Source: a virus | Strand: one strand, 5' to 3' | IMG/VR virus record: IMGVR_UViG_3300031524_001640 | Span: 1-64,000 of that record | Length of the DNA stretch: 64,000 bases | Shown here: positions 3,308 to 18,237 of the stretch, piece after piece | Position numbering within the stretch: position 1 is the stretch's first letter | Layout: every line of letters starts with the position of its first letter | Position numbers and translations under genes: made by a program | Notes under the pieces: model-generated | What the model saw: only the letters and a program-made list of their open reading frames with translations | What the model was told of the DNA's origin: nothing | Database searches by the model: none

Positions 3308-3322
3308 AGGAAAGCACGACGT

Positions 3323-3367
3323 GGGCTCTTAGCTCATTCGGGAGAGCAATGCTCTTGCAAAGCAGCA
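3323..3367 (+). pseudogene. tRNA-Ala 5' fragment (TGC anticodon)
   Basis: Acceptor-like GGGCTCT, TA, D-arm GCTC-ATTCGGGA-GAGC, and an anticodon arm TGCT-CTTGCAA-AGCA with anticodon TGC. The variable loop, T-arm and 3' acceptor are missing. The sequence runs directly into the stop codon of the antisense HNH gene, so the tRNA appears broken by that insertion. Confidence 0.6.
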
Positions 3368-3898
3368 TCATTTTCTCTTTGAGCTATACGATCCATCGTG
3401 ATTAATGTAATGTTCTTTAGCGTGACAATTTGGGCACAGAATCTCTAAGTTTGATAGATGAGAATTGGAACGGTTACGATCCTTGTGGTGTACAACAAGG
3501 ATCCCTATTAATTCATCATATCCACATCTATTACACTTATTTGGGAATGCGTTTAGAGCTTTTGCTCTATAATGGTGTTCTCCGGTACCTGTGCCAAAAT
3601 GAGATGGTTGTATAGCTTTTATGTTACCACCGTCTAATCGCTGTCCAAGTTCTTTACACTTACGGTTACAAAAGCGCAATCCGCTTCTAGAATTGGCTTT
3701 TCTAACGTATCTGGAAGGCTTAGTAAATGTACTATTACAATAAGCACAAGTAAGCTCTATAATAGGAGCTTTACTAGGAAGAGAGCTCTTATAGTTTCCA
3801 GAGCATTTCCTGGAACAGTATTTACCATTACCTCTGGTAATATCACGTTGTGGAGCATCAAATAGTTTGTTACAATATAAACAGTTACGAATTGGCAT
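3368..3898 (-). CDS. HNH homing endonuclease with zinc-binding repeats
   Basis: 176 residues on the opposite strand to almost everything else. Two N-terminal CxxC...CxxxC modules (CLYCNKLF...YCSRKC; CAYCNSTF...FCNRKC) precede an HNH domain: CNRCGYDEL, VVHHKDRNRSNSHLSNLEILCPNCH at about residues 118-158. It is probably a free-standing mobile endonuclease cutting at or near the tRNA-Ala locus: it ends inside a tRNA-Ala fragment, and an intact tRNA-Ala lies on its other side. A TATACTATATAG promoter lies upstream on its strand. Confidence 0.85.
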   Translation of the reverse strand: MPIRNCLYCNKLFDAPQRDITRGNGKYCSRKCSGNYKSSLPSKAPIIELTCAYCNSTFTKPSRYVRKANSRSGLRFCNRKCKELGQRLDGGNIKAIQPSHFGTGTGEHHYRAKALNAFPNKCNRCGYDELIGILVVHHKDRNRSNSHLSNLEILCPNCHAKEHYINHDGSYSSKRK

Positions 3899-3904
3899 AT
3901 AAAT

Positions 3905-3983
3905 GGGTTGTGGGACTGCACGGGGTGGTCACTTCTTTTGCAAAGAAGATTTCAGATGAGTTCGATTCTCATACGATCCACCA
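3905..3983 (+). tRNA. tRNA-Ala (TGC)
   Basis: Acceptor GGGTTGT/ACGATCC (two wobbles), D-stem GACT/GGTC, anticodon arm CTTCT-TTTGCAA-AGAAG, T-arm ATGAG-TTCGATT-CTCAT, A then CCA. The 7-base variable region is slightly long. Confidence 0.75.
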
Positions 3984-3997
3984 ACAAATCCTTTCGT

Positions 3998-4012
3998 ATC
4001 TATATAGTATAA
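3998..4012 (-). promoter_or_regulatory. Promoter-like TATACTATATAG on minus strand
   Basis: Reads TTATACTATATAGAT on the minus strand, about 100 bases upstream of the HNH start. The same 11-12 base word precedes the other three leftward endonuclease genes. Confidence 0.5.
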
Positions 4013-4078
4013 CATTTACAAAGGTGCAATTCTCGCTGGGTCCACCAATATTAAGTAGTACAAATAAGGGAGAGTACG

Positions 4079-4222
4079 ATGATTCACAAGGGTAAAGATC
4101 CGGGTCAGGGTAAGATCGGTAGCACTGGCAAACCAAGTAAAAAGGGCGGCTTCGAGTCATTGAACAAGACAGCCACCACAACCGTTGGTGGTAACCGTGG
4201 TAAGGGTGGTAAAAAGAAGTAG
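4079..4222 (+). CDS. Gly/Lys-rich small basic protein, 47 aa
   Basis: Begins MIHKGKDPGQGKIGSTGKPS and ends in a GKGGKKK tail. GGGAGAG precedes the ATG. Likely nucleic-acid binding from composition only. Confidence 0.5.
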   Translation: MIHKGKDPGQGKIGSTGKPSKKGGFESLNKTATTTVGGNRGKGGKKK

Positions 4223-4233
4223 TTTTAACAACT

Positions 4234-4347
4234 TTGTTATGGGTCGACCGACGAGGATTATCTGGATGGACGAAAGTCTAACTGTCGCCTGCAGCGGGTT
4301 TCGATACCCAAATAAGGCATAACCTTATCAATCCATATCCATAACAA
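4234..4347 (+). ncRNA. Hairpin RNA element, copy 1 of tandem array
   Basis: Outer 9-bp stem TTGTTATGG/CCATAACAA. Conserved 5' strand GGGTCG-N10-ATTATCT and 3' strand TTATCAATCCATATCC. P2 is GAGG/CCTT. Inside are a GNRA hairpin GGAC-GAAA-GTCT and a GCCT/AGGC stem carrying GGGT-TTCGAT-ACCC. Confidence 0.65.
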
Positions 4348-4357
4348 TATAAATTCC

Positions 4358-4469
4358 GCTTAGGGTCGAACGACAAGGGTTATCTAAAAGCGCAAGCTAG
4401 CTGTTGCCTACAGTGGTTCCCGGATCCATCTCGGGAAAAGGCATTCCCTTATCAATCTACATCTTAAGC
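4358..4469 (+). ncRNA. Hairpin RNA element, copy 2
   Basis: Outer stem GCTTAGG/CTTAAGC (one G-U). The 5' strand is GGGTCG-N10-GTTATCT and the 3' strand TTATCAATCTACATC. P2 is AAGGG/CCCTT, the GNRA hairpin is AGC-GCAA-GCT, and TGCCT/AGGCA carries TTCCCG/CGGGAA. Stem sequences differ from copy 1 but pair, so this is covariation. Confidence 0.65.
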
Positions 4470-4478
4470 AACAAAGAA

Positions 4479-4561
4479 TCTCGGGTCGAAGTATAAAGGT
4501 TATCTACAATTAAAATGACAGCCTGCGTGCAGGCAATACCTTTGTCAATCCATATCCGAGA
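4479..4561 (+). ncRNA. Hairpin RNA element, copy 3
   Basis: Outer stem TCTCGG/CCGAGA, P2 AAAGGT/ACCTTT, inner hairpin GCCTG/CAGGC. It keeps GGGTCG-N10-GTTATCT and GTCAATCCATATCC. It is shorter than copies 1 and 2 because the distal hairpin is reduced. Confidence 0.65.
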
Positions 4562-4599
4562 GATGAATAAATAGTTCCAAACATTAAAAGGAGCTACAT

Positions 4600-4821
4600 A
4601 TGCGCTGTCGAGTGAATGGAGAAACTGTACATCTCCCAAGGACTGAAGAGCAGAAAGAAGCTACGAGACTTCGTAAGGCAGCTGAACGTGAAGCTCATCG
4701 TGAAAGGGTAATGAAAGCATACCCACCCTCTGTCAGATATGCCAAGGCTAAGTTCAAGCCCGGCAAGAAGACAAGAGGTAAGAGTGGTGGAGCAAAACTT
4801 CCACTACTTGGATTGCAATAA
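4600..4821 (+). CDS. Basic hypothetical protein, 73 aa
   Basis: Arg/Lys/Glu-rich helix (EEQKEATRLRKAAEREAHRE) followed by a Lys/Gly-rich tail. AAAGGAG ribosome site at good spacing. It starts 38 bases after RNA copy 3, so the RNA array may be its leader. Not recognised. Confidence 0.6.
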   Translation: MRCRVNGETVHLPRTEEQKEATRLRKAAEREAHRERVMKAYPPSVRYAKAKFKPGKKTRGKSGGAKLPLLGLQ

Positions 4822-4872
4822 CAACAAACTACGTTCGTTGAACCTCTAGAAGGTAAATATGGGGGTTTTACA

Positions 4873-5043
4873 ATGGTAGGTTTAGTTCTAATGATTTTAG
4901 CTGTGGTTTGTTTATTGATCGCAGCTTGTGGTGTTAATTTCCCCAATCCTAGATTTAATATGCTAGCTTGGGGGTTATTCTTCTGGGCTCTAACCGTGTT
5001 ATTAGGTTTTGTAAACACAGCAGGAGTAACAATAAAGCATTAA
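4873..5043 (+). CDS. Two-helix membrane protein, 56 aa
   Basis: Hydrophobic stretches at about residues 2-19 and 31-48, separated by FPNPRFN. No good SD; GGGGG is 10 bases upstream. Not recognised. Confidence 0.5.
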   Translation: MVGLVLMILAVVCLLIAACGVNFPNPRFNMLAWGLFFWALTVLLGFVNTAGVTIKH

Positions 5044-5050
5044 GACCTTT

Positions 5051-5319
5051 GGTGGGTCGCCGGAACTTGGTTATCTCTATAACCGTGCAAGTACCCGTTA
5101 CCTCGGGGACAATTAAACCTTCTCTGATAGAGAAGAGCTATTTGAAAGAATAGCAAACACAGAGGTTAAATAGTTATAAGCCTGTGTCTGGTTAAGACAC
5201 TACTAGTATTGAGAAGTCAGTGCGGTTACCTTTGACCACATAAAGGTGTAGGATATTTGACGCTGGTGATGTTTGCTGGACTAAGATATCCGAAATATCC
5301 AATTCCAATTATATCCACC
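5051..5319 (+). ncRNA. Large relative of the hairpin RNA element
   Basis: Keeps GGGTCG-N10-GTTATCT at 5054-5076 and CCAATTATATCC near the 3' end. The outer stem is GGTGG/CCACC and P2 includes TTGG/CCAA. Between them about 220 bases hold at least six hairpins, for example TTCTCT/AGAGAA, GCTATT/AATAGC, ACACAG/CTGTGT and ACCTTT/AAAGGT. No tRNA T-arm is visible. Confidence 0.45.
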
Positions 5320-5328
5320 TAAGATTTT

Positions 5329-5403
5329 GGTCCAGTAGCATAACGGCAGTGCACTTCACTGTCTCTGAAGTTTGTGTCGGTTCAAATCCGATCTGGATCG
5401 CCA
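5329..5403 (+). tRNA. tRNA-Asp (GTC)
   Basis: Acceptor GGTCCAG/CTGGATC, anticodon arm CTTCA-CTGTCTC-TGAAG, T-arm TCGG-TTCAAAT-CCGA, G then CCA encoded. Confidence 0.92.
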
Positions 5404-5411
5404 ATAGTGAG

Positions 5412-5485
5412 GGTGTAGGCTCTAGGTAACACTAGACACTTTAGGAGCTACTACAAGATGGGATTGTAGCCTAAAGCCCTGCACC
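5412..5485 (+). ncRNA. Three-way-junction RNA downstream of tRNA-Asp
   Basis: The P1 strands 5412-5419 and 5478-5485 pair over 8 bp (GGTGTAGG with CCTGCACC; one G-U). P2 is TCTAG-GTAACA-CTAGA. P3 is TTTAGG/CCTAAA extended by CTACAA/TTGTAG. It sits 36 bases before the outer-membrane protein gene, so it is a leader or riboswitch-like candidate. Confidence 0.4.
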
Positions 5486-5520
5486 TGATTCCCATAAGAT
5501 TTCCAAGGAGAGAAATATAA

Positions 5521-17907: not shown

Positions 17908-17913
17908 GTATTA

Positions 17914-18057
17914 GATGAGGGTCGATAGAAATTGGTTATCTCAAACAGAATGTTATTGGTTCGAGTCCAATCTTCCATTCAATCGAGTGGATGTAGTTCA
18001 AATGGTAGAACATCCGTCAGCCGAAAGGCTTACCCAATTCCACCCCATATCCTCATC
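17914..18057 (+). ncRNA. Hairpin RNA element with permuted tRNA domain (copy A)
   Basis: P1 GATGAGG/CCTCATC. The GGGTCG-N10-GTTATCT box spans 17918-17940 and its end overlaps the first bases of the tRNA domain region. P2 is AATTGG/CCAATT and the 3' box is CCACCCCATATCC. Inside: T-arm ATTGG-TTCGAGT-CCAAT (17955-17971), acceptor hairpin CTTCCATTC-AATC-GAGTGGATG, TA, D-arm GTTC-AAATGGTA-GAAC, then hairpin AGCC-GAAA-GGCT. The acceptor is closed by a 4-base loop with no CCA. Confidence 0.7.
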
Positions 18058-18070
18058 ATTAAATTCAAAT

Positions 18071-18215
18071 CATACGGGTCGACAGAGCAAGGTTATCTTC
18101 ACTCATAACGAACGGGTCTGGGTTCAAATCCCAGGGCTGGCACCATTTAATAATTTATGCCAGCTTGGTGTAATGGTAGCATCGAAAAACATCTTGTTCA
18201 AACTATATCCGTATG
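18071..18215 (+). ncRNA. Hairpin RNA element with permuted tRNA-Met-like domain (copy B)
   Basis: P1 CATACGG/CCGTATG, box GGGTCG-N10-GTTATCT, P2 CAAG/CTTG, 3' box TTCAAACTATATCC. Inside: ACTCATAA (possible CAT anticodon loop), T-arm CTGGG-TTCAAAT-CCCAG, acceptor GGCTGGC-A-CCA (18135-18145), a 13-base spacer, then acceptor GCCAGCT (18159-18165; 7 bp) and a D-arm-like TGTAATGGTAGCA. Confidence 0.7.
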
Positions 18216-18237
18216 ACTTAACACAGGGAAGGAAAAT

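Follow-up and report, generated by a model that had tools for sequence, protein, structure and literature searches.

Y RNAs are small RNAs bound by Ro60, a ring-shaped protein; from humans to bacteria, one cytosine bulges from their basal stem, and this is the Ro60 site (PMC4030889). In Deinococcus a Y RNA ties Rsr to PNPase for the decay of structured RNA, and the Salmonella Y RNA YrlA mimics tRNA (PMC7790460, PMC8394870, PMC8058203); YrlA can be superposed on a tRNA with a circular permutation (PMC11472068). Phages have a part in this partnership as well: mycobacteriophage Y RNAs are reported (Chen et al. 2014, as cited in PMC12282133), a Y RNA is suspected in Listeria phage CKA15 (PMC12282133), and Vibrio phage vB_VhaM_pir03 has a Ro60-like protein (PMC7765460).

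We analysed a stretch of 64 000 nucleotides of viral DNA (positions 1–64 000 of IMG/VR record IMGVR_UViG_3300031524_001640; hereafter the window). A first-pass annotation had pointed out three tandem copies of an RNA element that matched no class. The three elements are where it placed them, apart from the end of the third, which we corrected to about 4563. They belong to the Y RNA (Ro60/Rsr-binding) class: with a probability of about 95% they are phage-encoded Y RNAs, part of a set of at least 11 around the phage's own Ro60 (Rsr) gene. The number of copies is not three but six in the window (Table 1) and at least 11 in the phage. The structure of the elements, their covariation, their membership of the family and the Ro60 gene encoded by the same phage are direct results of computation.

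Table 1. Y RNA copies in the window. R1 is our covariance model; its E-values are rough.
Feature	Position	Strand	Evidence
Y RNA copy 1	4234..4347	+	R1 model 30.2 bits, E 7.4e-7 (filters off, 4000-5500); fold (z -2.9 against own shuffles); covariation
Y RNA copy 2	4357..4471	+	R1 27.6 bits, E 3.2e-6 (filters off, 4000-5500); fold (z -2.8 against own shuffles)
Y RNA copy 3	4477..4563	+	R1 31.0 bits, E 4.9e-7 (filters off, 4000-5500); fold z -3.4 (against own shuffles)
Probable Y RNA copy 4	5048..5321	+	Core motif 5055-5076; R1 10.9 bits (partial match), E 0.036 (filters off, 4000-5500)
Y RNA copy 5, YrlA-like	17913..18058	+	R1 31.8 bits, E 3.4e-5; YrlA model 26.6 bits on 17948-18014 (gathering score 69)
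Y RNA copy 6	18070..18217	+	R1 27.2 bits, E 4.2e-4; fold z -4.4

At the bottom of each element is a predicted Ro60-binding module: a basal stem from which one cytosine bulges, then an internal loop, then a second helix that ends in GGUUAUC. On this module stands an effector domain that varies from copy to copy. In copy 1, for example, the basal stem TTGTTATGGGT/ATCCATAACAA with its bulged C is topped by a compact effector made of a GNRA hairpin and a GCCT/AGGC stem. GNRA hairpins are present in copies 1 and 2, as had been noted; the GCCT/AGGC stem, which had been ascribed to all three copies, is found in the minimum-energy folds of copies 1 and 3 and is missing from that of copy 2. Copy 3 is the shortest, with an apical hairpin GCCTG/CAGGC. 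Copy 4 is probably a Y RNA too; it has an outer stem of four pairs and a P2 of four pairs, its arms are separated by a long insert, and its R1 match is weaker than those of the other copies. A tRNA-Asp gene (5329-5403) directly follows it. The motif GGTCG-N(4-16)-GGTTATCT occurs five times in the window, against 0.00 expected from 100 dinucleotide shuffles, and a pattern search of the remainder of the 142.8-kb record returned no further core copies.

The outer and P2 stems change in sequence between copies while pairing is kept. Over 26 elements from the phage of the window and other records, the outer-stem arms pair at 4.69 out of five variable positions within a copy and at 2.32 between copies, and 0 out of 100 000 permutations were as good; for P2, whose helix the MAFFT alignment leaves out of register and which was therefore tested by permutation, the figures are 5.85 within and 3.38 between copies (again 0 out of 100 000). 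In alignment A2, 95.3% of the cells are paired (56.6% when shuffled), and the covariation score is 1.07, compared with 0.28 when shuffled and at most 0.24 when slid. The first-pass claim of a functional, covarying RNA family is strongly supported.

The conserved boxes, which had been read as single-stranded, are largely a conserved helix that is predicted to bind Ro60. In the minimum-energy folds of copies 1–3 (three out of three) the outer stem continues through GGGU, one C is bulged and the next GA is paired, so that GGGTCG is mostly helix, its partner being ATCC on the 3' strand. For the G that follows the bulge, the U or C next to ATCC on its 5' side is a possible partner (12 G-U and five G-C among 17 sequences); the minimum-energy folds, unlike the covariance model, pair it with a U-C that lies a few bases more inward, and its exact partner appears to differ between fold and model. 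In human Y1, GGUCCGA is followed by GUUAUC, the same order as in the phage elements. The vertebrate Y RNAs (human Y1/Y3/Y4/Y5) share the basal stem with one bulged cytosine, but are Polymerase III genes with largely pyrimidine-rich loops; their likeness to the phage elements lies in this stem and, for Y1, in the order of the motifs.

The first-pass annotation had called the elements free of tRNA, which is true of copies 1–3; copies 5 and 6, however, have a circularly permuted tRNA-like effector domain (T-arm, acceptor-like stem, D-arm) that copies 1–3 lack. In copy 6 the tRNA halves can be read directly in the sequence, with an acceptor-like stem and an encoded CCA. It could be argued that these are permuted tRNA genes, whose circularly permuted pre-tRNAs are spliced to functional tRNAs, and that copies 1–3 are their decayed relatives, since in copies 5 and 6 the 3' tRNA half comes before the 5' half and the phage is rich in tRNAs. 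We consider this extremely improbable: a tRNA-like top is absent from most copies here and from many in relatives, although these retain the Ro60 helix, and the Y RNA YrlA is itself superposable on tRNA in permuted form (PMC11472068). The ideas of permuted-tRNA splicing and of a permuted intron, to which copies 5 and 6 had given rise, were dropped on account of the YrlA matches and Ro60. Another circularly permuted tRNA-like stretch lies at 2868-2987 of the window (YrlA model, 26.6 bits, below the gathering score), with a stem TCTGG/CCAGA and no Ro60 core motif; this may be a Y RNA, in variant or decayed form, or a feature of another kind.

Look-ups in databases might call the elements new, as Rfam is blind to copies 1–3. 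At the gathering threshold a search of the whole window with Rfam returned tRNAs only, and blastn against known phages returned tRNA-Asp only; the Rfam search that had been proposed for copies 1–3 gave no match at E up to 10. Copy 5 scores below the gathering score of YrlA (RF02553) and copies 1–3 do not match this family, which is why the copies are not filed as YrlA members. Compared with YrlA in the Salmonella rsr-yrlBA-rtcBA operon, the phage elements are alike in being encoded beside Ro60/Rsr and in having a basal stem with a variable top; the YrlA model matches the top of copy 5, whose layout is shared by copy 6. They differ from the RF02553 consensus in the basal stem, which has the GGGUCG/UUAUC form, and from the Salmonella operon in the compact non-tRNA tops of copies 1–3, in their number (at least 11 copies) and in that RtcB was not found in the phage.

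We scanned viral contigs for the pattern; the matches were mostly due to chance and were filtered for the downstream stem. Among the scan matches listed, arrays of the same core occur in L011 (six copies), in L020 (five) and also in L061, L096 and L098, and in these relatives some copies have compact tops and others tRNA-like tops with the 3' half before the 5' half. A permissive Rfam search found YrlA matches at several places in the relatives (E down to 2.8e-6, below the curated threshold), which pointed to Y RNAs, the partners of Ro60 (TROVE domain). Among the scan matches listed, every one of the five records with a clear array encodes TROVE, as does a sixth record that has motif copies; none of the 27 others does. 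The core motif was found 28 times on the same strand as Ro60 at 80 bacterial Ro60 loci and 67 times at 80 viral ones (95 in total), and never on the opposite strand; controls with the motif written backwards gave 5 and 0 in all.

An independent covariance model (R1) was trained on 17 compact elements from bacteria and from viruses other than the phage of the window; each lies at a Ro60 locus or in a record with a Ro60 gene. With default filters it finds copies 1, 3, 5 and 6 in the 142.8-kb record, missing copy 2, and all its matches up to E = 10 are on recognised elements; with filters off over 4000-5500 it finds copies 1, 2 and 3, and copy 4 weakly. R1 gave 64 matches at 77 bacterial Ro60 loci, 63 of them on the same strand as Ro60, and 88 matches at 80 viral loci, all of them on that strand; some training elements and the phage of the window are part of the viral set. 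Out of the 30 strongest bacterial matches 27 are upstream of Ro60, the median distance being 176 bases. The absence of an Rfam match for copies 1–3, and effector domains in these copies that resemble nothing known to us, would fit a new, unrelated family of structured RNAs (riboswitch-like, or a phage sRNA array) lying near Ro60 by chance. That is very unlikely, given that the association with Ro60 is specific for strand and position in both bacteria and phages, and given the bulged-C helix and the YrlA-like tops of sibling copies.

The Ro60 gene is known only from a longer assembly, since no TROVE domain was found in the window's own 142.8-kb record (Pfam and our own profile, at full sensitivity). 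This record (142 806 bp) is shorter than IMGVR_UViG_3300029908_000004 (215 291 bp), which is apparently the same phage, with 0 mismatches over 9267 compared bases, and which encodes TROVE (E 1.6e-39). The phage Ro60 is complete (566 a.a.), with a computed stop about 1.7 kb to the left of window position 1, and aligns over its full length with human Ro60 (E 6.9e-109), Deinococcus radiodurans Rsr (1.1e-95) and also Xenopus Ro60. Five further Y RNA copies lie within about 900 bp 5' of its start codon, with about 250 bp between the codon and the end of the nearest copy. At its left end (14-292) the window cuts into an iscU-like gene (NifU_N, E 3.8e-36), a phage-borne iron-sulphur scaffold gene that starts just left of it.

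By alignment, the phage Ro60 keeps residues that contact Y RNA. In the alignment with human Ro60, human H187, K170 and R174 correspond to phage H208, K186 and R190, and the equivalents of these residues, and likewise the DxSxS metal-site residues, do not vary among 13 phage Ro60 proteins. K170 and R174 are residues that we take to be Y RNA contacts, and H187 is a published one (PMC4030889). The phage Ro60 query matches 341 out of 50 697 phage records.

The same core is found upstream of Ro60 in named Ro60-encoding phages, the phage here having more copies. The model finds core elements upstream of Ro60 in Mycobacterium phage I3 and in Streptomyces phages Stigma and Yaboi (two to four copies each, compared with 11 here), and the records of these phages have no Y RNA annotation near Ro60. 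In phage I3 two of the model matches (3557-3635 and 3833-3908 of contig L166), both close to Ro60 on its upstream side, overlap the annotated hypothetical genes 241 and 242; these genes may be false ORF predictions made on top of Y RNAs. R1 gave no match on Listeria phage P100, which neither supports nor rules out a Y RNA in CKA15. Because mycobacteriophage Y RNAs have been reported and there are many phages with an annotated Ro-like protein, the elements are a known kind of RNA and not a new class. What stands out is their copy number and variety, the absent Rfam match and the absent annotation near Ro60 in named phages. An apparent orphan RNA thus becomes a member of the very old and widespread Ro60–Y RNA partnership, and phages can carry large and varied sets of Y RNAs (11 here; viral contig L272 has at least 12 core copies in the 2.5 kb before Ro60). 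With unannotated Y RNAs found beside Ro60 in named phages, the role of phage Ro60 systems can be tested in laboratory phages, for example in Mycobacterium phage I3.

We infer that the phage Y RNAs are transcribed and bind Ro60; they would sit on the outside of the phage Ro60 ring, where their differing tops might serve it as gates or as tethers to other factors. If Deinococcus and Salmonella are a guide, the tethered partner could be a host exoribonuclease such as PNPase, and the phage would in this way steer RNA quality control or decay during infection, perhaps of tRNAs. Neither an RNase_PH (PNPase-type) domain nor RtcB was found in the phage, so a RYPER-like machine would need host parts. 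The Y RNAs may instead be put to another use with no PNPase tether, as decoys or protectants, mimicking tRNA so as to soak up anticodon nucleases, or as RNA sponges, which is compatible with their identification as Y RNAs by origin and structure. This use is possible, if on balance unlikely: the tops are variable, the phage has no PNPase-type domain that we could find, and a competitive-inhibitor idea has been proposed for YrlA (PMC7790460), but copies 1–3 have no tRNA-like domain and all copies keep the predicted Ro60-binding module. For the tRNA-like tops a decoy role is a live alternative (PMC7790460). More speculatively, and we hold it to be doubtful, large phages might run a diversified Ro60 system in which one ring is served by a dozen interchangeable Y RNAs, whose tRNA-like and compact tops direct it to different partners or substrates at different stages of infection. 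If true, this would contrast with one Y RNA having one role.

Other features lie before copies 1–3. A tRNA-Ala-like 5' stretch (about 3321-3365 of the window) is followed by an ORF with an HNH endonuclease domain on the minus strand (3368-3898) and then by a tRNA-Ala (TGC) gene (3905-3983); 3321-3983 looks like a homing-endonuclease insertion beside or into a tRNA gene. Directly before copies 1–3 there is a lysine- and glycine-rich ORF (4080-4219; about 46 a.a.), with a GGGAG stretch upstream that resembles a ribosome-binding site.
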